Source of the DNA: Hymenobacter properus
Lineage (GTDB): Bacteria; Bacteroidota; Bacteroidia; Cytophagales; Hymenobacteraceae
NCBI RefSeq assembly: GCF_015694735.1
Contig: NZ_JADQDP010000002.1
Span: 744,001 to 808,000, forward strand
DNA: 64,000 nucleotides
Reading direction: 5' to 3'
The notes under the pieces are model-generated. The model was not told the origin of the DNA and did not search any database. It worked only from the letters and a program-made list of their open reading frames with translations. The position numbers and the translations under genes were made by a program. Below, piece by piece: positions 8,873-64,000 of the stretch. Numbering within the stretch: the first letter of the stretch is position 1; every line of letters begins with the position of its first letter.

Positions 8873-9271
8873 TTGTTTTTGAAGGCACTTCATTCTACCT
8901 CGACTTTCTTCTTGCTCCTTTCCGTCGCTGGTTTCGTCAGTTGCAATTCAGAACGCGTCACCAGCAGCCCCTCTTCGTTGCGGGGGCAGGAAGAGGTGCG
9001 ATTCCGCGCGGCCCCCGGCAGTGCCCCGGTATTGGTGGGCCGGGTGCAAGTGGTAGATGAGGCCGGAAGATTCCCCGTAGCCAAAGCATTGGTTTCAATC
9101 GATGGCCAAGCACACTACACCGATGCGTTCGGGGCGTACCGTGTACCCGTCGCGCCCGGCAAGCACCAGGTGGTCGTGGAGCATACGGGCATGCGCCCTG
9201 CCCGCACCACGGTCAAGGTGGAGCCCGGCGATTCCGTGCAGGTCACCTTTTACCTGCGCCACAACGACTGA
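8873..9271 (+). CDS. Small lipoprotein with a carboxypeptidase-regulatory-like fold
   Basis: 132 residues. The N-terminal hydrophobic stretch ends in VAGFVSC, a lipobox with Cys24, so it should be lipid-anchored. The rest (GRVQVVDEAGRFPVAKALVS, YTDAFGAYRVPVAPGKHQVV, TVKVEPGDSVQVTFYL) is an Ig-like carboxypeptidase-regulatory/CNA-B type beta-sandwich. Such domains occur on surface proteins of this phylum as structural modules. There is no catalytic part, and its role is unknown. Confidence 0.8.
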   Translation: MFLKALHSTSTFFLLLSVAGFVSCNSERVTSSPSSLRGQEEVRFRAAPGSAPVLVGRVQVVDEAGRFPVAKALVSIDGQAHYTDAFGAYRVPVAPGKHQVVVEHTGMRPARTTVKVEPGDSVQVTFYLRHND

Positions 9272-9572
9272 ACACGCAGTGGCAGTCGAGGTATGACAGC
9301 CGACGGAATGAGCGTCGCCTTGATTTAAGCCTTGGCTCCGTTGTTCACCTGAGCACTGGCTACCTGCTGTGCAGGCCCTCAAGCCGCACCACGTCAACCA
9401 GCACGAGTGGCCAGGCAACGGTCCAACGTGCTGCATCGGCCTCTGGCAAGAAAAGACCGACGAGTCTGTGCGCATTCCATTGCCGCCCGCCGTTGCTATC
9501 TGGTAACGCTGGGGCGGGCACCTGCCCATTGGCGTGCACGGAACAGATGGCATCGCCATTTTAAGAGAAAAT
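9272..9572. other. Non-coding stretch
   Basis: About 300 nt between the lipoprotein stop and a leftward terminator. Reading frames here are short or are shadows that run into neighbouring genes. I recognise no RNA, repeat or gene remnant. Confidence 0.5.
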
Positions 9573-9604
9573 AAAAAGCCCCGGCCAACTGGCCAGGGCT
9601 TTTG
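9573..9604 (-). terminator. Terminator of the 9624-9890 gene
   Basis: Read leftward, the hairpin aaaagccctggcca/tggccggggcttttt is followed by T-rich sequence. It begins 20 nt downstream of the stop at 9624. Confidence 0.8.
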
Positions 9605-9623
9605 TGTAGCGGGGCGCCAAAGG

Positions 9624-9890
9624 CTAATTGAGCCATACCCGCTCGATGATTTCAAATCGGTGCTGGCTGAAGGCATTAAAATAGGGCGCTTCGCCCTGAA
9701 AGCCCAGCACGTGCACTAGTTCCGTTCCTTCGGCCTTGCCCTCCGTCACGCGCACGGGGTAAATCTGGCCCTCAACTGGCCAATCGCCTACGTGCTTGGC
9801 CGGACGGTTGCTGTCGTCTACGCACACGGCGTAGTCGATGAAGGGCGCGGTGGTGGTGGCTTCGGCGAGGGTGTGGTTAGTTACTTCCAT
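9624..9890 (-). CDS. Conserved-looking 88-residue hypothetical protein
   Basis: A short acidic soluble protein without a signal peptide. The segment CVDDSNRPAKHVGDWPVEG followed by QIYPVRV resembles a small family often seen in Bacteroidota genomes and phages, with pattern C-DDSNRP-x(n)-W-x(n)-G-x-Y-x-V. Its function is unknown to me. A good terminator follows. A 10-bp hairpin (9904-9932) lies just upstream of the start and may belong to its leader. Confidence 0.7.
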   Translation of the reverse strand: MEVTNHTLAEATTTAPFIDYAVCVDDSNRPAKHVGDWPVEGQIYPVRVTEGKAEGTELVHVLGFQGEAPYFNAFSQHRFEIIERVWLN

Positions 9891-9903
9891 AATTTAAAAT
9901 TAC

Positions 9904-9932
9904 AAACGGCCAGCGGATGAGACTGGCCGTTT
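9904..9932. other. Hairpin upstream of the 9890 start
   Basis: A perfect 10-bp stem, aaacggccag/ctggccgttt, with a 9-nt loop. It could be a leader hairpin of the leftward gene or a terminator. No gene to its right ends here. Confidence 0.5.
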
Positions 9933-10173
9933 GGTATGGCTCTGGTGTTTCCTCAGCTTGGCCAGCAGCTGGTGTCCACTAATGCAATAGTAGCCGCTCT
10001 GCCAGTATAACGCAAGTATTGTAGGTTATGATTCCAAGAACAAGTCAAGCGTCGTACGCCACGGCTGCCACGCGGCGGGATGGAATCCCGTGCGCCGGGC
10101 ATTGAAACCGTCGAGCAAGCACTCATATTGAGAGTTATAAGCCAGCACCTACCAGCCCTGCCAGAAATAACCA
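9933..10173. other. Non-coding stretch
   Basis: About 240 nt with no credible ORF or RNA. It leads into the long inverted repeat at 10174. Confidence 0.45.
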
Positions 10174-50738: not shown

Positions 50739-50793
50739 ATTGGCGGGCTAGTGGATTGGTGGATTAGCATCGTAGGCAATCCGCCAATCCACC
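50739..50793. repeat. Short inverted repeat, family F
   Basis: Arms around 50750-50765 (agtggattggtggatt) and 50778-50793 (the complement with two differences) between convergent genes; the right arm abuts the regulator's stop codon. Related arms flank the family-A copy at 52397-52561. Confidence 0.6.
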
Positions 50794-51449
50794 TAAGAAA
50801 TCAGCCCCCGGCTCACGGCCAGCTTGATGAGGGCGGCGGTGTTTTTGGCCTGGGTTTTGGCGATGATGTTTTGGCGGTGGGTTTCGATGGTGCGCTTGCT
50901 GGTGAAAAGCTTGTCGGCAATTTCGCCGTTGGTGAGGCCTTCAGCGATGAGCTTGAGCACTTCCAGCTCGCGGGCCGTGAGGTCGGCCCCGGCGTGGCTG
51001 CTCATGTCGTCGGGTGCGGCGCTGCCCAGGTTGGCCACGGCCTTGTAGAGCAGGTTCATGCCGATTTCCGTGCACAAAAACGGGTTGCCCGCCGCCACCG
51101 TCCGAATGGCGTACATAATTTCGTTGATGGCGGCGTTTTTGAGCACGTAGCCCAGGGCTCCGGCCTCAAACATGCGCACCACGTAGTTTTCGTGGTCGAG
51201 CATGGTGAGCACCAGCACGTGCACCTCCGGAAAGCGCTGGCGCAGCTCGGGCATGGTAGCAAAACCGTCGAGCACGGGCATTTGCACGTCCATCAGCAAC
51301 ACGTCGGCGGAGGTGGTTTCCAGCATGGTCAGCACTTCGGCGCCGTTGCTGGCTTCGCCCACCACTTCCAAGTCGGGGGCGGCGGAAAGCAAGGCCCGAA
51401 TGCCGTCGCGTAGAATAGTGTGGTCGTCGGCTAGCAGGATGCGGGTCAT
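50793..51449 (-). CDS. NarL/FixJ-type response regulator 1
   Basis: 218 residues from ATG 51449. The receiver domain (1-120) has Asp54 in LLMDVQMPVLDG and Lys104 in YVLKNA. The LuxR-type HTH at ~155-215 reads LTARELEVLKLIAEGLTNGE and KRTIETHRQNI. It should bind DNA when phosphorylated. No kinase gene is adjacent. It is divergent from a paralogue with an almost identical recognition helix (LFTSKRTxETHRQNI), so both may bind similar sites in their shared intergenic region. Confidence 0.93.
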   Translation of the reverse strand: MTRILLADDHTILRDGIRALLSAAPDLEVVGEASNGAEVLTMLETTSADVLLMDVQMPVLDGFATMPELRQRFPEVHVLVLTMLDHENYVVRMFEAGALGYVLKNAAINEIMYAIRTVAAGNPFLCTEIGMNLLYKAVANLGSAAPDDMSSHAGADLTARELEVLKLIAEGLTNGEIADKLFTSKRTIETHRQNIIAKTQAKNTAALIKLAVSRGLIS

Positions 51450-51717
51450 AGCGGGGAGGAAGAGAAGAGTATTGGAACAGCGGGCAAACCGCAAAGTTGA
51501 ACCAACTGCCTTATACGGAAAACAGCGCTCCGTATTTGTACCAAATCGGCCCCTAATGCCCGGATATTTTAAGGGATTTATACGGCTTTTATTAGCGGGT
51601 TTAGGGTTCAGCTTGCCCTTATCTGTACTTTCGAGGTGCCGAAAACCAGTTTTGTTGCGCTGCAAACCAAAATCGGCTTCTTTTCGGTTTACGCGCTTGA
51701 TTTCCCTTTCTACACCC
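51450..51717. promoter_or_regulatory. Shared promoter region of the divergent regulators
   Basis: 268 nt. It contains an inverted repeat atacgga-N9-tccgtat (51513-51535), a candidate operator, and TACTTTCG at 51626-51633 with ttta about 20 nt upstream, a possible -33/-7 pair for the rightward gene. Confidence 0.45.
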
Positions 51718-52368
51718 ATGATTCGCCTGCTTCTTTCCGATGGCCACGCCCCCACGCGCGAAGTGTTGCGCCTCGGATTGGCGGCGGCCCCCGGGCTCGA
51801 AGTAGTGGGCGAGGCCGGCGACGGCGATGAGCTGTTAGCCCAATTGAGCACCGCCAGCCCCAGCGTGGTGCTGCTCGACCTGAACCTGCCCGGCCCCGAC
51901 GCCATGGCCCTGCTGCCCGCCCTGCGCGGCCAATACCCGCAGGTGCGCGTGCTGGCCCGCGGCGAACTCACCAACGAGCACTACGTAACGCGCGCCTTCG
52001 ACCTCGGTGCCCACGGCTACATCCTCAAAAGCGCTGTGCCCACCGAGCTTGTGCACGCTCTGGCCACCGTGGCTTCGGGCCGGTCGTTTCTGTGCTCCGC
52101 CATCGGGCTGGCCTTGCTGGGCCGCCTCCACGCCTCCACGCCCGCCGACGGCGACGCCGCCCGTGCGGCCCTGGGCCTGAGCAAGCGCGAAATGGAAGTG
52201 CTGGGCCTGGTGGCCGCCGGCCTCACCAACGCCGAAATTGCCCTTAAGCTCTTCACCAGCAAGCGCACCGTCGAGACCCACCGCCAAAACATCATGGACA
52301 AGACCCAGACGCGCAACACCGCCGCCCTCATCCGGCTGGCCGCCAGCCAGGGTTTGCTGCCGGGGTAA
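51718..52368 (+). CDS. NarL/FixJ-type response regulator 2
   Basis: 216 residues from ATG 51718. The receiver phosphoacceptor Asp lies in VVLLDLNLPGPDA and the switch Lys in YILKSA. The LuxR HTH reads LSKREMEVLGLVAAGLTNAE and KRTVETHRQNI. It is a paralogue of the divergent neighbour: the output domains are close to identical in the recognition helix, but the receivers differ (SDGHAPTREVLRL against ADDHTILRDGIRA). The N-terminal acidic pair is SDG rather than DD, which may weaken Mg2+ binding. Confidence 0.92.
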   Translation: MIRLLLSDGHAPTREVLRLGLAAAPGLEVVGEAGDGDELLAQLSTASPSVVLLDLNLPGPDAMALLPALRGQYPQVRVLARGELTNEHYVTRAFDLGAHGYILKSAVPTELVHALATVASGRSFLCSAIGLALLGRLHASTPADGDAARAALGLSKREMEVLGLVAAGLTNAEIALKLFTSKRTVETHRQNIMDKTQTRNTAALIRLAASQGLLPG

Positions 52369-57932: not shown

Positions 57933-59270
57933 ATGCCGATTTCCGTTTCCGCGGGCTTGCCTGCGTCGCGTTTGTTTCGTTGTTTCCGGCTCGCTGGGGC
58001 GTTTTTTGGAACATTTTCCCTCCTGACGGCCTGCAACTCGGAGCCGGCCGAAACCACCGCCAGCAAGCCCACTAAAGCCCCCAAAGCCGATACCGAAGCC
58101 TCCACTGCGCCCCAAGCCGCGCCGCTGCGGGTAAGCGTATTTCTGGAATATTCGGGCGGCATGAAGGGCTTTGTGCCGCGCGGCGGGGCCGATAAGCCGG
58201 CCACCGAGTTTCAGCAGCGCATCGGCGCGCTCATCACCGAAACGCAGGTGAACGGGGCAGTGGCCGAGCGCAAGTACTACCTCTGCGAAAACGCCGCGCC
58301 CAAGCCGGTGAAGTTCGAGGAGCTGCGCAACCTGGTGCAGGGCAACGTGGCCCAGGCCGCCCTGGGCACCGAGCTGCCGCAGATGCTGGAAGGCATCTTC
58401 AACCGGCCGAAGGCCACGGAGGAAGTCAGCGTCATCATCTCCGACTTCATCTACGGGCCGGAAGACCGGTCGGCCTTTTCGCAGCTGCCGAACCTGATTC
58501 GTACGTCCATCGCGCCCGTGAGCCGCCAGCAGCTGGCAGTGGCCGTGTTTGGGGAGACGTCGCGCTTCTACGGCAGCTACTTCCCCGCCGTGAAAACGCC
58601 GGTGCAGAAGCGCACGCTCAACGGCGAAAAGGTGCCCTACTACGTGTGGGTGGTTGGGCCGCCCGCGCAGGTGGCGCGCTACGCCGCCGAAGTGTTTCGC
58701 AACGCGCCGGCCCAGCAGGCATTTTTTGGGTTGAAAACGAGCACGCCGGCTTTTGCGCCGCTGCTCACCAAGCTCACCGACCCCAAATTAAAGTCGAGCG
58801 GCGGCACCGTGTACGCCGAGAACAACGGTCTGACGCTGAACCCTTCCGACGACCCGGTGGACTTTTCGGTGGGCCTGGATTTGAAGGAATTGCCCGCCGC
58901 GTGGCAGAAACCCGCATTTTTGGCCCAACATCTGCAAGTGCGCCTGCCCAACGGCCAGGCCAGCCTGCTGCCCAACTCGGTGCGCCCCCTCACCGACGAC
59001 GAGCAGAGCGGCCAGCCCGTGCTGGCGCCCTACACCCACGTAGCGCGCCTTCGCGTGAGCAAACTGGCGGCCCCCACCGCCACGCTCACCCTGAGCCTGC
59101 CCGCCCCGGAAACGCCGGACTGGGTAGCGGCCTGGAGCACCACCAACGACAATACGCCCGCCCCGCGCACGTTTGGCCTCGACCAAATTCTGGCGGGCGT
59201 CCGCCAATCGTATCCCACGCCCTTGCCGGCCGTATTCACGGTCCAACTGCCACTTAAAAACGATAAATAA
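57933..59270 (+). CDS. Lipoprotein with a vWA-like domain
   Basis: 445 residues from ATG 57933, with a lipobox at FSLLTAC (Cys34) and a low-complexity Ala/Lys/Thr spacer to residue 62. The domain starting LRVSVFLEYSGGMKGFVPRG and continuing VSVIISDFIYG looks like a von Willebrand A fold whose MIDAS reads ExSGG instead of DxSxS, so metal binding is doubtful. The C-terminal ~150 residues form a beta-rich domain (HVARLRVSKLAAPTATLTLS). It is anchored at the envelope. It begins a rightward cluster, with the next gene 15 nt downstream. Confidence 0.8.
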   Translation: MPISVSAGLPASRLFRCFRLAGAFFGTFSLLTACNSEPAETTASKPTKAPKADTEASTAPQAAPLRVSVFLEYSGGMKGFVPRGGADKPATEFQQRIGALITETQVNGAVAERKYYLCENAAPKPVKFEELRNLVQGNVAQAALGTELPQMLEGIFNRPKATEEVSVIISDFIYGPEDRSAFSQLPNLIRTSIAPVSRQQLAVAVFGETSRFYGSYFPAVKTPVQKRTLNGEKVPYYVWVVGPPAQVARYAAEVFRNAPAQQAFFGLKTSTPAFAPLLTKLTDPKLKSSGGTVYAENNGLTLNPSDDPVDFSVGLDLKELPAAWQKPAFLAQHLQVRLPNGQASLLPNSVRPLTDDEQSGQPVLAPYTHVARLRVSKLAAPTATLTLSLPAPETPDWVAAWSTTNDNTPAPRTFGLDQILAGVRQSYPTPLPAVFTVQLPLKNDK

Positions 59271-59285
59271 CCCGCGCTTCCCGCT

Positions 59286-59696
59286 ATGCAAACCTTCTTC
59301 ACCAGCCTGTACTCGGCTCTTATTTCCATCTTTCAAAGCCAGCGCCCGGCCGATTACGGCCTGTATAAAACCGACCTGTTTTCACTGGTGGGTTGGAGCA
59401 CGCTGGGCGTGAGCTTGTTGCTGGTACTAGTCTTCTATTATGTATTCAATTCGGCCCTGCGCACGGGCATGTTCCGTACCACGCACTGGGTATTGACGCT
59501 GGCGCTGGCCGCTGGCCTGGGCACCTTTCTGGCCAACAGCCTCAGCAAGAGCCACGGCGCCGAAGTGAGCAGCTACCTGGGCTACTTCATGGTGGTGAAC
59601 ATGCTGGTGGCCGCCTTGTGGTTTCTGATTTTCTCGGTGCTGCTGAAGCGCTGGAGCACGTATGCGCGCACCACACCGTTTGTGGGGCCGTTTTAG
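59286..59696 (+). CDS. Three-TM membrane protein of the cluster
   Basis: 136 residues with membrane segments at about 40-58, 67-87 and 96-120. The N-terminal ~35 residues are amphipathic (LYSALISIFQSQRPADYGLY). I do not recognise the family. The 15-nt spacing from the lipoprotein gene means they are almost certainly cotranscribed, so it may link the lipoprotein to the cytoplasmic tubulin- and actin-like proteins. Confidence 0.8.
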   Translation: MQTFFTSLYSALISIFQSQRPADYGLYKTDLFSLVGWSTLGVSLLLVLVFYYVFNSALRTGMFRTTHWVLTLALAAGLGTFLANSLSKSHGAEVSSYLGYFMVVNMLVAALWFLIFSVLLKRWSTYARTTPFVGPF

Positions 59697-59712
59697 TTTT
59701 TTCTGTCAACAT

Positions 59713-59817
59713 CTGTCATCCTGAGCGCAGCGAAGGACCTTCCCACGTCTGGATACTTTGAATTTATTGCGAATGACTCTGGCTTGATAAGGTCCTTCGC
59801 TGCGCTCAGGATGACAG
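59713..59817. repeat. Palindromic repeat, family B, subtype B2 (copy 2), inside the cluster
   Basis: Perfect 29-bp arms 59713-59741 and 59789-59817 (ctgtcatcctgagcgcagcg.. and complement), core aaggacctt. It starts 16 nt after the membrane-protein stop and ends 38 nt before the tubulin-like gene. Confidence 0.95.
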
Positions 59818-59855
59818 ACGTGAAAACGACAGCTTTCTCAATTCGCTAGAAAACA

Positions 59856-61337
59856 ATGTCCAAACTATTCATCTTTGCCGTGGGCGGCACCGGAGCCCGC
59901 GTGCTGCGCTCCCTCACCATGCTGCTGGCCTCGGGTGTTCGCATTCCGAACTGTGACCAGGTGGTGCCCGTCCTCATTGACCCCGACACCCAGAACGGCG
60001 ACGTGACGCGCACGGTGGCCCTGCTCAAGCGCTACGCCCGCATCCACGAGGCGCTGTACGGCGACGGCCAGAAAGAGAAAACCGGCTTCTTCAGCCAGCC
60101 CATGAACACGCTGGCCCACCTGAACACCAGCGGGGGCGGGGAGGAACTGCGCGACTCGTTCGTGTACGACTTCGGCGGCATCAGCCAGCCGTTCCGCGAC
60201 TACTTGCGCTACAACGACCTCTCGGTGGAAACCCAGGGTCTGGTTGATTTGCTGTTCACGCAGGACAGCCTCGCGGCCAACCTCGACGTAGGCTTCCGCG
60301 GCTCGCCCAACGTGGGCTCGGTGGTACTGAACGCGGTGGTGCAGAGCAAGGAAATGCGCTACCTCGCCCAGAGCCTGCAGGACGGCGACCGCGCCTTTTT
60401 CATCAGCTCGATTTTTGGTGGTACGGGCGCGGCGGGCTTCCCGCTGCTGGTGAAAAACCTGCGCGATGCCAACTCACCGCTGGCCCACCCCGAAATCCGC
60501 CGCCGCCTCAAGGCCGGGGCACTAGTGATGCTGCCCTATTTCAAGCTAGCTGACCCTTCGGCTGATGAGAAAGCCGCCGGCCAGGATTTCATTGACTCCA
60601 ACACCTTCATTACGAAGACGAAAACGGCCCTCTCGTACTATGCCGACAACCTGCAGGGGCTGGAAGCCATGTACTACTTGGGCGACCAGCCCGGCCAGCC
60701 GCTGGCCAACCATCCCGGCCGCGCCGAGCAGCGCAACCAGGCCCACCTGCTCGAAATGCTGGGCGCGCTGTCCATCCAGCACTTCATGGAAGTGCCCGAC
60801 AACCAGCTCGATGGCAACCAGCCGCTTTTCCATGAATACGGCCTGAAATCGGACACGACGGACGTGGATTTTGGTCAGTTGCCCAGCGACATGCGCCTGG
60901 AAGTGGCCCGCCCGCTGATTCAGTTGCATTACTTCGCCCGCTATTTCCTCAAGCACACGCCCGAGGACGCCAAAGCGCCCTACTACGAGGCTGGTGACCT
61001 TTCGGCCCAACTGCGTAACAACCGCGCCTTGCGCGAGCTAACAGACTTTTTCGGCGAGTACAACGAGTGGATTCGGGAACTGGGCGTGAACCAGCGCCGC
61101 TACACCGCCATCCGCGCCGACGAGGCCGATTTCAACAAAATGGTGGCCGATAAAACCGTCGAAACCGGCATTTTCAGCAAAGGCATCACGCCCGGCTATT
61201 TCCGCGACGAGCTGACGAAGGCCGTGGGCAAAGACACCCTGAAAAACCCGACAGAGAACGAGGCGCTGCGCTGGGTAGTGAAGGCGTTTGAGGAGGCGAC
61301 GGGCGAGATTCTGGACAAGAAGCTGCAGTACTCCTGA
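59856..61337 (+). CDS. Tubulin/FtsZ-superfamily GTPase-like protein
   Basis: 493 residues. The N-terminal FIFAVGGTGARVLRSL and the later ISSIFGGTGAAGFPLLVKNL (Gly188-Gly191 region) are the two glycine-rich nucleotide motifs of the 'tubulin-like' (Tubulin_2) family, distinct from FtsZ itself; PVLIDPDTQNGD supplies the T2/T3-type acidic loop. The C-terminal ~200 residues are helical and unassigned. No signal peptide: cytoplasmic. It may polymerise with GTP. It lies between the envelope genes and a large Hsp70/actin-fold protein. Confidence 0.82.
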   Translation: MSKLFIFAVGGTGARVLRSLTMLLASGVRIPNCDQVVPVLIDPDTQNGDVTRTVALLKRYARIHEALYGDGQKEKTGFFSQPMNTLAHLNTSGGGEELRDSFVYDFGGISQPFRDYLRYNDLSVETQGLVDLLFTQDSLAANLDVGFRGSPNVGSVVLNAVVQSKEMRYLAQSLQDGDRAFFISSIFGGTGAAGFPLLVKNLRDANSPLAHPEIRRRLKAGALVMLPYFKLADPSADEKAAGQDFIDSNTFITKTKTALSYYADNLQGLEAMYYLGDQPGQPLANHPGRAEQRNQAHLLEMLGALSIQHFMEVPDNQLDGNQPLFHEYGLKSDTTDVDFGQLPSDMRLEVARPLIQLHYFARYFLKHTPEDAKAPYYEAGDLSAQLRNNRALRELTDFFGEYNEWIRELGVNQRRYTAIRADEADFNKMVADKTVETGIFSKGITPGYFRDELTKAVGKDTLKNPTENEALRWVVKAFEEATGEILDKKLQYS

Positions 61338-61352
61338 CGCCGTTCCCACGTC

Positions 61353-61504
61353 AACCTCACCCCCGGCCCCCTCTCTTTGGGGAGAGGGGGGCCAGACGAC
61401 ATTCTGTTTAAAACAAACTTGAAACAACTCTAGAGGCCCTTCGCAGCCAACGCCCGCGCCGCCGTGGCTCCCCTCTCCTGGGGAGAGGGGTCGGGGGTGA
61501 GGTT
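61353..61504. repeat. Palindromic repeat, family C
   Basis: Outer arms aacctcacccccg / tcgggggtgaggtt with two inner hairpins, ccccctctcttt-ggggagaggggg (61367-61390) and cccctctcctggggagagggg (61470-61490). It starts 15 nt after the tubulin-like stop. This type of CT-rich repeat is common between genes in many bacteria. Confidence 0.85.
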
Positions 61505-61534
61505 CCGCCGTTAGCGCCTCTCGCAATCATACAT

Positions 61535-64000
61535 ATGGCTAAAATCCTGCGTTTGCACGATACTGGCTCCAGCACCCACGAGGGCTGGGGACCGACTGGT
61601 AAAATTGGCCCCCACGAAGTAGAGCGTCTGCTCGACCCGCAGGGCGGCCGCGCCGCCAAGGTGGCGGTTTCGATTCCCTCGCCCTTCGCCCGCATGCACT
61701 TGGTGGAAACGGCCCTGCGCTTTGTGACGCAGGGCGGCGCGGCCCAGGATTCGGTGTACCATCAGCTGGTGAGCCACTTCTGGGACGTGTGGGAAATGGT
61801 GTTCAACTTCCATCAGCGCAAGCTGGCCAACCAGCGCCTGCAAATTCGGGCCTGGCGCAAGGATGAGGAACTGGCCAAGCTGCGCGCCAATCCCGCCACC
61901 CGTCCGCTGGCCGACGTGCTGGCCCTGTACCTCGACGGCCGCTTTGCGAAGCTGACCGAGATGCACCTCATCTACTTTCCCGGCGCCAACGGCGTGCCGC
62001 AGCTCATCGGCGGCACCTCGCCGCTGACGCTGTTCTTCCCCGCGCCCAACGTGAAGCCGCTGCCGGTGCAGCGTCCGCAGGGTGGGGGGTATTATTTTGA
62101 CAACCAGTACGTGCCGCTGGCCAACCGCGAAGCCGCTTTCCGCGACTACGTGTACCAGGAATTTGTAGGCGACCCCGCCCTCACGGCCATGGCGCCGCTG
62201 GTGCGTGATACGCTGGACCGCGGCCTGCTGCAAAAGTGGGCCATGGACGGCACCGCCAGCCTCGCCAACTTCCCGGTGCTGACCGACGCCTCCAACAATC
62301 AGATTGACGTGGCCGGCGTGCTGCTGCGCGTACGGCCCGACGAAGGCACCGTGCGCGGCTCCGACCTGTTCATCCGGCCCACGCGGGCGGGGGTGGCGGG
62401 GCCGCTGCCCATCGTGCTGCGGCCTGGTTTGAAGGCCATTGGCAAGAAGTACTACAACGAAACGCTTTTTGCTGACAGCGGCGCCATTGTGCCTCTCACC
62501 GATGCCCGGCCGCTGAAGGAGCGCACGCTGCCCGGCCCGGAGCTGCCGTATCCGTATCTGACGGTGAACGACTTGCTGGAAGAAACCTTGCTGGCCGTGC
62601 CCTATGAGGTGGACGAAACGCGGTTTTTCAGCGGCAACCTGAAAATTGCGCCCGGCTTCCGGCCCAGCAGCTGGCCGCTGCTGCCCATCAAGCCAGCGTA
62701 TTTTGACTACTTCACGCAACAGGATTTGGCCGAGCACCTCTCGCTGGAGTTGGAATCGGCTTGCATCCGGGTGCGGCTGCGGGTGCCGGTGAGCGGCGGC
62801 GACTACGTGGATTATGAGCGCGCTTACTACGACAACCCGCAGGGCGACGGCGTGGGCCGCCTGCGCGTGACCAACGTAGCGCTGTCGGTGTTCCCCTTCG
62901 TGAAAGTGGCCGACGCGCCGCAGTACAACGACTTCTACAAAGTCATGCTGGTGGATGCCAACAACATCGACCCCAGCATGGTGACCAAGAAGGTGGACCT
63001 GAAATTCTGGGCCAACGGCCACCAGCTCAGCGAAACCGGCACCGACCAGAGCGCCACCCGCTACGAGCGCACCCCCAAAACCAGCCAGGACGAGGGCAGC
63101 ACCTACTACGAGGTGCGCGGCACTCATTTCGACTACCTCGAAGTGCTGAACCCGGCCCCGGCCGAGGGACGCGCGCTCGTGATTCCGCGCTGGCCTGAGG
63201 TGCGGCAGGGCACTAAGGAGTTCCGCTTTGCCATCGACTTCGGCACCACCAACACCCACGTGGCCATGCAGGACAGCCCCGGGCAGGAGCCCAAGCCGTT
63301 CAGCTTCGGCCTGGCCGATACGCCGGTGGCCCTGCTGAAAAAGAGCACCGCCGAGCCCGACCGCACTGCTTATGAGCGTCTGTACCGCGGCATCGACGAC
63401 GACCCGGCCAACTTCGTGCAAATTAAGCGCTGGCAGCAATACCAGGAGCGCGAGTTCGTGCCACCCATCATCGGGGCCGACAGCTCGCCCTACGCCTTCC
63501 CGGCGCGCACCGCCACCTACGAGGCGGCCAACTACGCCACCCAGGAGCTGAGCGTGCTCGGCAACATCAACGTGGCCTTCGGTATCATCACCGAGGAGCA
63601 ACGCCGGCCTAACTACCACACCAACCTGAAGTGGGATAATTCGCTGAACATCGCCAACACCAACCGCGTGCGGGCGTTTTTCAAGGAAATCCTGCTGCTG
63701 TGCCGCGCCAAAGTGGCCCTGAACGGCGGCAACCTCGCGGCCACGCAAATCACCTGGTTTGCCCCACTGAGCTTCTCGACCTACCAGCGCAACCTGTACC
63801 AGCGCGAGTGGGACACGCTGTTTCACGACGTGTTCAAGACGACCAATTCCATGCCCTGCATGGTAGAATCGACGGCGCCGTACTACTACCTCACCCGCCG
63901 CAACATCGTGACGCTGGGGCCGGGCGAAAACGCGGCCTTCATCGACATCGGTGGCGGCACCACCGACGTGCTGCTCTACGCTGACCGCAAGCCGGTGCTG
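61535..64000 (+). CDS. Large Hsp70/actin-fold protein (3' end outside window)
   Basis: 822 codons from ATG 61535, open to the right edge. Residues 1-~560 are a long region of no recognised family, with two beta-rich halves (e.g. LFFPAPNVKPLPVQR, VRLRVPVSGGDYVDY). At ~565 an actin/Hsp70-type ATPase fold begins: phosphate-1 FAIDFGTTNTHVAMQ (Asp568) and phosphate-2 AAFIDIGGGTTDVLLY (Asp804), ~240 residues apart. The rest is cut off. The order suggests a chaperone-like or filament-forming ATPase fused to a big N-terminal module. It clusters with a tubulin-like GTPase, a vWA-like lipoprotein and a three-TM protein. Confidence 0.85.
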   Translation, partial: MAKILRLHDTGSSTHEGWGPTGKIGPHEVERLLDPQGGRAAKVAVSIPSPFARMHLVETALRFVTQGGAAQDSVYHQLVSHFWDVWEMVFNFHQRKLANQRLQIRAWRKDEELAKLRANPATRPLADVLALYLDGRFAKLTEMHLIYFPGANGVPQLIGGTSPLTLFFPAPNVKPLPVQRPQGGGYYFDNQYVPLANREAAFRDYVYQEFVGDPALTAMAPLVRDTLDRGLLQKWAMDGTASLANFPVLTDASNNQIDVAGVLLRVRPDEGTVRGSDLFIRPTRAGVAGPLPIVLRPGLKAIGKKYYNETLFADSGAIVPLTDARPLKERTLPGPELPYPYLTVNDLLEETLLAVPYEVDETRFFSGNLKIAPGFRPSSWPLLPIKPAYFDYFTQQDLAEHLSLELESACIRVRLRVPVSGGDYVDYERAYYDNPQGDGVGRLRVTNVALSVFPFVKVADAPQYNDFYKVMLVDANNIDPSMVTKKVDLKFWANGHQLSETGTDQSATRYERTPKTSQDEGSTYYEVRGTHFDYLEVLNPAPAEGRALVIPRWPEVRQGTKEFRFAIDFGTTNTHVAMQDSPGQEPKPFSFGLADTPVALLKKSTAEPDRTAYERLYRGIDDDPANFVQIKRWQQYQEREFVPPIIGADSSPYAFPARTATYEAANYATQELSVLGNINVAFGIITEEQRRPNYHTNLKWDNSLNIANTNRVRAFFKEILLLCRAKVALNGGNLAATQITWFAPLSFSTYQRNLYQREWDTLFHDVFKTTNSMPCMVESTAPYYYLTRRNIVTLGPGENAAFIDIGGGTTDVLLYADRKPVL

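Follow-up and report, generated by a model that had tools for sequence, protein, structure and literature searches.

What would a bacterium use a tubulin-like and an actin/Hsp70-like protein for, when the two are encoded side by side with a lipoprotein and a small membrane protein? The question is raised by four genes, here called A to D, at the right-hand edge of a 64,000-nucleotide stretch of the Hymenobacter properus genome (contig NZ_JADQDP010000002.1, positions 744,001 to 808,000; hereafter the window). The four open reading frames (ORFs) are co-directional and fill 57.9–64.0 kb of the window, as an earlier note made from the sequence of this stretch had described and the ORF list confirms. 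The same note expected the operon to run past the edge, and it does: gene D ends at window position 64942 (L009:8942), its full-length product having 1135 residues, and is followed by genes E, F and G (Table 1). Gene order, sequence profiles and predicted folds suggest that the seven-gene operon encodes a machine, not described before, that connects the cell envelope with two enzymes of cytoskeletal type. The earlier reading, in which a sensor or adaptor works with two cytoskeletal nucleoside triphosphatases (NTPases), holds for the two folds, the lipoprotein and the single unit; it was incomplete because E and a putative ZorA/ZorB-like motor pair (F and G), which it missed, belong to the conserved unit as well.

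Tubulin-like and actin/Hsp70-like proteins

Protein C is, judging by profile comparison and its predicted structure, a short divergent relative of the FtsZl1/Tubulin_2 proteins that falls below the Pfam cut-off and has no coiled-coil region. Near its N-terminus it carries GGTGARV, which we take to be a T1-like nucleotide loop, and further on FGGTGAAG, presumably the T4-type tubulin signature loop; both motifs, already picked out in the earlier note, are kept among 77 relatives (GGTG[AS]R in 76, FGGTGA[AS]G in all 77), more often than chance would allow. A sequence search of the PDB with C returned only a lysozyme (E 0.68), so a fold search was needed. With the AlphaFold2 model of C (42 sequences, pLDDT 83.7, pTM 0.87), 48 of the 50 top rows listed by Foldseek are FtsZ or tubulin (E 1.8e-3 to 1.5e-2, probability 0.91–1.00), the other two being nucleoside hydrolases of lower probability. 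VIA-align, which re-scores the top 1000 Foldseek chains only, so that a fold missing from its list could still match, gave a Z of 16.0 to CetZ (207 residues, 3.2 Å); 49 of its 50 rows are titled FtsZ, CetZ, tubulin or microtubule, and the title of the last (9w2m) is uninformative. These searches support the tubulin fold that the note had proposed. Arguing against it are the lack of any Foldseek match below E 0.001, TM-scores of only 0.2–0.4, and the catalytic T7 loop, which was not located in C.

The link to Tubulin_2 (PF13809) comes from profiles. In Pfam, C gives E 0.016 with Tubulin and 0.13 with Tubulin_2, both under the cut-offs, and the window protein scores 12 bits against the PF13809 cut-off of 27, which it does not reach. 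PF13809 attains E 0.1 in 36 of 42 C relatives (best 1.4e-5), and the only C locus above its cut-off is that of genome G401 (L163), with its neighbours in the frame. An hhalign comparison of nine divergent C proteins with five Tubulin_2 proteins yielded a probability of 93.7 over 356 columns of the GTPase region (E 1.9e-7). The full set of 85 C rows reached just 25.5 (E 7.5e-4), and the controls (FtsZ, vWA, MotA) stayed below 1; such pairwise E-values are uncalibrated against a database, and even FtsZ against FtsZl1 gives a probability of 0.3. The five fetched Tubulin_2 proteins are 982–1208 residues long (one is cut by a contig end) and FtsZl1/Tubulin_2 proteins have about 1000 residues, compared with 493 in C, which by its length and the secondary structure of its model is without their extended coiled-coil or helical C-terminal region; the accessible text of PMC2875224 describes a long coiled coil in FtsZl1.

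Protein D consists of an N-terminal region of about 560 residues and a following domain (residues ~560–1005) that is, by motif and model, an actin/Hsp70-superfamily ATPase fold. All three motifs are present: DFGTTN, which we take to be of the phosphate-1 type, DIGGGTTD, presumably of the phosphate-2 type, and a third actin-type (adenosine-type) motif, FTGRGS, at residue 942, past the window edge. The first two had been noticed before, and among 75 relatives the motifs recur, again beyond chance, in 74 (DFGT[TS]N), 72 (D[IV]GGGT[TS]D) and 73 (adenosine-type). The fold named in the earlier note was recovered with an AlphaFold2 model of the orthologue from locus L062 (1135 residues, 94.3% identical; 32 sequences, pLDDT 81.6, pTM 0.66), for which Foldseek listed MreB at E 1.6e-9, then ParM and Hsp70, with 301 matches below 0.001. 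VIA gave a Z of 14.0 to DnaK and 13.3 to MreB over residues ~560–1005, a tie, so that the actin and Hsp70 types are not separated. The Pfam match of D to FtsA (0.014) lies under the cut-off. SrfB (PF07520) is, like D, a large Hsp70-like protein, and the note had proposed comparing the two; the likeness amounts at most to weak matches in four of 32 D proteins (best E 0.019), with no match in D of the window genome at E up to 1.

Two cytoskeletal folds in adjacent genes would fit an accessory cytoskeleton for cell shape or division, made of a tubulin and an actin homologue, with the motor merely co-transcribed. We regard this as improbable. The cell-division ftsZ gene lies elsewhere in the genome (G000:C1:598859), for which reason C was rejected as the division FtsZ, in agreement with the earlier note; F and G accompany the core genes in almost all close loci, and 382 of the 395 phylum genomes lack C.

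Lipoprotein, membrane proteins and putative motor pair

Protein A is, from its sequence, a lipoprotein with a vWA-like domain, as the earlier note had concluded from a lipobox and an ExSGG motif. The lipobox cysteine (Cys48) occupies an invariant column in 19 aligned A proteins, and the lipobox pattern fits 56 of 77 relatives. The ExSGG motif, EYSGGM, does not satisfy the canonical metal ion-dependent adhesion site (MIDAS) pattern DxSxS; the position reads EVSGSM in 27 of 77 relatives and DGSGSM in two aligned cyanobacterial homologues. A sequence search of the PDB with A gave no match, so profile comparison was needed. The trimmed domain matched 24 vWA domains in hhalign with a probability of 90.2 (E 1.6e-6; four control profiles below 1), both sides having been chosen and trimmed by MIDAS-like patterns, a procedure that biases the comparison towards a match there. 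Whole A proteins gave a probability of 0.6 against vWA references that include several short fragments, and a Pfam search of 19 members found no vWA match. In a crude hydropathy scan, protein B, kept between A and C in relatives' loci, shows two of the three transmembrane helices that the earlier note had counted; the third is plausible and lies under the threshold. Searches of the family libraries Pfam and PADLOC gave nothing of note for A, B, E and F.

From their sequences, F and G appear to be a pair related to ZorA/ZorB, ExbB/TolQ and MotB, the match of F being weak. In the PDB, G is most similar to the ZorB chains 8vvn_B (type I, 2.7e-8) and 8qyd_F (3.6e-5), the type II protein 8vvi_A reaching just 0.6; its Pfam match to OmpA (0.0014) is under the cut-off, and the ZorB models for G (1.3e-6) are the sole PADLOC matches of the operon. 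An Asp before LMT, Asp14 in G and aligned with the ZorB Asp, is present in 69 of 71 relatives. F matches ZorA (8vvn_C) at 0.0072 over residues 126–186, and TolQ and another ZorA at ~0.37; the pattern PLY[LI]GL[LM]GT occurs in 61 of 75 relatives. Two hallmarks of 5:2 ion-driven motors (MotAB, ExbBD, TolQR, ZorAB), the transmembrane Asp of the B subunit and the transmembrane pair of the A subunit, are thus recognised, the second through a weak match. The hydropathy profile of F, three peaks followed by a long C-terminal part, resembles ZorA, whose rod-like cytoplasmic extension is needed for activity according to the accessible part of PMC11890865.

Several observations count against a Zorya-like motor. 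When F is searched against the PDB, two helical proteins score better than ZorA, through the tail of F; the hhalign probability of F with MotA_ExbB is 27 (the references include short MotA fragments), and Pfam holds no meaningful match to F. In G, the HTD of ZorB (8vvn_B) aligns with RAA, and relatives carry RAA, MAA or RTA there in 68 of 71 cases, three being unmatched by the pattern. The peptidoglycan-binding residues of ZorB that were tested are H186 and D188 (PMC11890865, accessible part); from the H-x-D spacing we infer that HTD holds both. With these likely wall-binding residues replaced, anchoring of G to the cell wall is doubtful; another component, perhaps A, may hold G in place instead.

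The resemblance to Zorya thus lies in a MotB-like G with a transmembrane Asp and an F with three predicted transmembrane helices and a long cytoplasmic part, as far as the available description of ZorA–ZorB goes. The operon differs in the replaced HTD residues and in its linkage to tubulin and actin/Hsp70 folds, and no ZorC, ZorD or ZorE was recognised among the seven proteins; membership of Zorya was rejected on account of the missing effector and the lost HTD residues. The nearest solved relatives of G and the nearest motor relative of F are nevertheless Zorya subunits, which favours an anti-phage or conflict system where the ZorAB-like motor and the vWA lipoprotein would sense envelope perturbation and the tubulin/Hsp70-type pair would be the effector, along the lines proposed for Zorya and for GTPase-centric conflict systems. 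Tubulin, HSP70-type and vWA proteins also come together, as here, in the predicted GTPase-centric conflict systems (PMC7159879, in its accessible text). Those systems centre on a TRAFAC GTPase, and the main text of that paper makes no mention of MotA, ExbB, TolQ or Zorya, whereas the seven-gene operon encodes no P-loop GTPase and was rejected as a member for that reason. A Walker A motif (GxxxxGK[ST]) was found in none of the seven proteins, no nuclease, helicase or toxin was recognised in the operon, and PADLOC points to ZorB alone. We consider a defence role doubtful.

Table 1. Genes and motifs of the operon. Positions refer to the window, except those marked L009.
Feature	Position	Strand	Basis or remark
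Gene A, predicted lipoprotein with vWA-like domain	57933..59270 (longest ORF from 57891)	+	ORF list
Lipobox cysteine of A, residue 48 of the 57891 ORF	58032..58034	+	Alignment column
Degenerate MIDAS-like motif of A, EYSGGM	58146..58163	+	Motif comparison
Gene B, small membrane protein, 2–3 predicted transmembrane helices	59286..59696	+	ORF list, hydropathy
Gene C, predicted tubulin-fold protein, 493 residues, short FtsZl1/Tubulin_2 relative	59856..61337	+	
GGTGARV of C	59883..59903	+	Motif near the N-terminus of C
FGGTGAAG of C	60414..60437	+	Pattern kept in relatives
Gene D, predicted actin/Hsp70-fold protein, residues 1–822 of 1135 in the window	61535..64000	+	
DFGTTN of D, residue 568	63236..63253	+	Motif
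DIGGGTTD of D, residue 804	63944..63967	+	Actin-family, FtsA and MreB chains match by profile here
Gene E, predicted single-pass membrane protein, 364 or 371 residues	L009 8899 or 8920–10014		Outside window
Gene F, putative ZorA/ExbB-like motor subunit, 497 residues	L009 10197–11690		Outside window
Gene G, putative ZorB/MotB-like motor subunit, 219 residues	L009 11834–12493		Outside window

Conservation and distribution

A scan of the GTDB species genomes for C relatives gave at least 551 stretches, of which the best 80 were analysed, so that the locus set leans to close relatives. The order ABCDEFG on one strand is found in 71 of the 80 (65 plain, four with a stray upstream E-profile match on the opposite strand, two with C in two frames), which bears out the single conserved system put forward in the earlier note. 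Seven of the remaining nine loci stop at contig ends; L132 is without G, and L140 consists of A, B and C. The flanks vary, the commonest flanking family occurring in 27 of 81 loci. A family set of 21 loci (the window and 20 others; 19 primary copies) has the order A-B-C-D-F-G in phmmer searches as far as the stretches reach; E is mostly too variable for phmmer, and an ORF stands in its position in nearly all 21. L058, a second copy, retains A, C, D, F and G; the copy in L059 is divergent, and in L060 both C and D are in pieces. C is split into two frames in L060, L082, L101 and L162 (in L060 D too), by decay or sequencing error.

C is present in 94 of the 120 family genomes, a survey in which six genomes with no C match are not listed by kinship, and in all 43 genomes listed for the genus, H. 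properus included; the named relatives whose C is 94–97% identical to that of the window are Hymenobacter. In the phylum, 13 of 395 genomes hold C. D gives long matches in eight of these genomes; its match in G209 is truncated by a contig end and that in G426 is partial, and every one of these genomes holds C. An ORF search places D next to C in G301 and G401 too, so that among the C genomes of the phylum only the broken locus of G506 is left with no D. The other 137 of the 147 genomes matched by the D profile have matches of 37–67 residues in frames of 274–635 residues, apparently of FtsA type (in six of them within ~2 kb of ftsZ), and were excluded from the count. Strong F matches occur in six of the 395 genomes, all of which hold C; weak ones in G207 and G181, which are without C, were excluded.

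Patchiness outside the family and core copies on cyanobacterial plasmids are what a defence system would lead one to expect. Presence in every listed genome of the genus is unusual for such a system, and C has no match in 50,697 phage records, a result on which a phage origin was also dropped. Since the operon is near-universal in the family and fixed in order, a role in envelope maintenance or stress is preferred over dispensable defence.

Farther away the set of genes changes. L159 has A to D and F–G in a profile search, and in L165 C and D are accompanied by an A-type lipoprotein (8e-7), an OmpA protein (1.2e-16) and a MotA_ExbB-like protein that, at 22.3 bits (1.1e-4), just misses the cut-off of 22.9; its match to G (3e-46) is circular, the protein being part of the model, and was not used. 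The motor of L165 may be a second, independent association, but the C row of this locus is very long-branched and unsure in placement. Other loci tell against an obligatory motor, as do L132 and L140 above: L157, L160 and L161 have A to E in genomes with no F match. The absence of D from L162 (A, a two-piece C, F and G) likewise speaks against the full set. F–G is absent from the stretches read or fetched of L163 (C and D plus an OmpA protein at 6e-17; the contig breaks off on the upstream side), L164 (C and D, with an unmatched lipoprotein-like ORF upstream), L059 (A, C and D), a Prevotella locus (A, B, C and D) and Gloeothece and Picosynechococcus plasmid loci (A, C and D). Since F–G is missing from several distant loci, A, C and D with a small membrane protein form the core and the motor is an associated module. 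Six plasmid records had a match, three of which were inspected. In the Gloeothece plasmid locus A is encoded on the opposite strand. The Picosynechococcus plasmid (L246) has genes for F0F1 ATP synthase and phosphonate transport in the vicinity of its core-like genes.

L164 also carries three TerD proteins beside C and D (1.4e-70, 2.8e-68 and 4.3e-51; L164:2175–4063), and an HSP70 protein (2.2e-77) lies beside A, C and D in L059. Both would suit a Ter-type response to metal or chemical stress, with the core as a stress scaffold that has TerD or DnaK modules elsewhere and the motor here. Such a role for the operon seems unlikely: the seven-gene form has no Ter or DnaK gene, the TerD-linked L164 is a long-branch relative, and a TerD-looking small gene of L163 has no Pfam match.

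A tree of C (36 rows, after removal of 19 near-duplicate rows and the broken L162) has open forks and long branches that come together, and was used just for the scatter of loci with and without a motor, which is non-random (3 changes against a shuffled mean of 8.9) with four incomplete loci unlabelled and L132, which has no G, labelled as motor. Hymenobacter rows stand in several places of this tree, and the clade of the window is closer to Pontibacter and Rufibacter than it is to the remaining Hymenobacter; an old duplication, losses or transfer could account for the scatter.

Relation to FtsZl1 and a proposed mechanism

The precedent for a tubulin relative near vWA proteins, to which the earlier note alluded, is FtsZl1, which Makarova and Koonin (2010, PMC2875224) linked to vWA, GTPase, kinase and OmpA proteins and for which, in the accessible text, membrane remodelling was proposed. 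As in the operon described here, a tubulin-fold protein adjoins a vWA protein in FtsZl1/Tubulin_2 operons, and OmpA-domain proteins belong to them in several genomes. The unit described here also includes a motor pair and an actin-fold protein; the main text of that paper does not contain MotB, TolR, flagell- or HSP70. FtsZl1-type tubulins were thus described in 2010 with a proposed role, and our literature search, outside whose reach were bioRxiv and most subscription papers, found no functional study of them and no paper in which a tubulin-like protein is combined with a motor of the Zorya or MotA type. With one branch of FtsZl1 joined in a fixed operon to an ion-motor pair and an actin/Hsp70-fold protein, non-pathogenic bacteria offer a small, testable set of partners. 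The operon would also bring cytoskeletal-type NTPases into the circle of partners known for 5:2 motors (flagella, Ton, Tol, gliding and Zorya).

From these parts, which are well supported, we infer a mechanism. Our favoured reading, held tentatively and with a little less than even confidence, is a trans-envelope machine in which an ion-driven motor and the vWA lipoprotein control the tubulin/actin NTPase pair. F and G would form an ion-driven motor of the 5:2 type. A and G, placed in the periplasm, would be sensors or anchors, with A and the OmpA-like domain of G reading a periplasmic signal, which the cytoplasmic tail of F (residues ~180–497) and E would pass to C and D. When the motor runs, these cytoplasmic NTPases would assemble or switch at the inner membrane, and their response would reinforce or remodel the envelope. 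The stronger proposition, that a proton- or ion-driven 5:2 rotary motor directly drives or gates paired tubulin-like and actin-like assembly from the envelope and so represents a new kind of machine, is speculative, and we would put it forward only with reserve.

Downstream of G a DUF4386 protein is encoded. The gap between B and C holds a dispersed imperfect palindrome of ~110 bases (window 59708–59821) that looks like a repetitive extragenic palindromic (REP) element; it has many matches on both strands of the genome (40 of 584 candidates scored) and a single-strand DNA fold z of -9.8. Elsewhere in the window (50793–52368), two similar proteins that read as response-regulator-like are encoded on opposite strands in overlapping frames.

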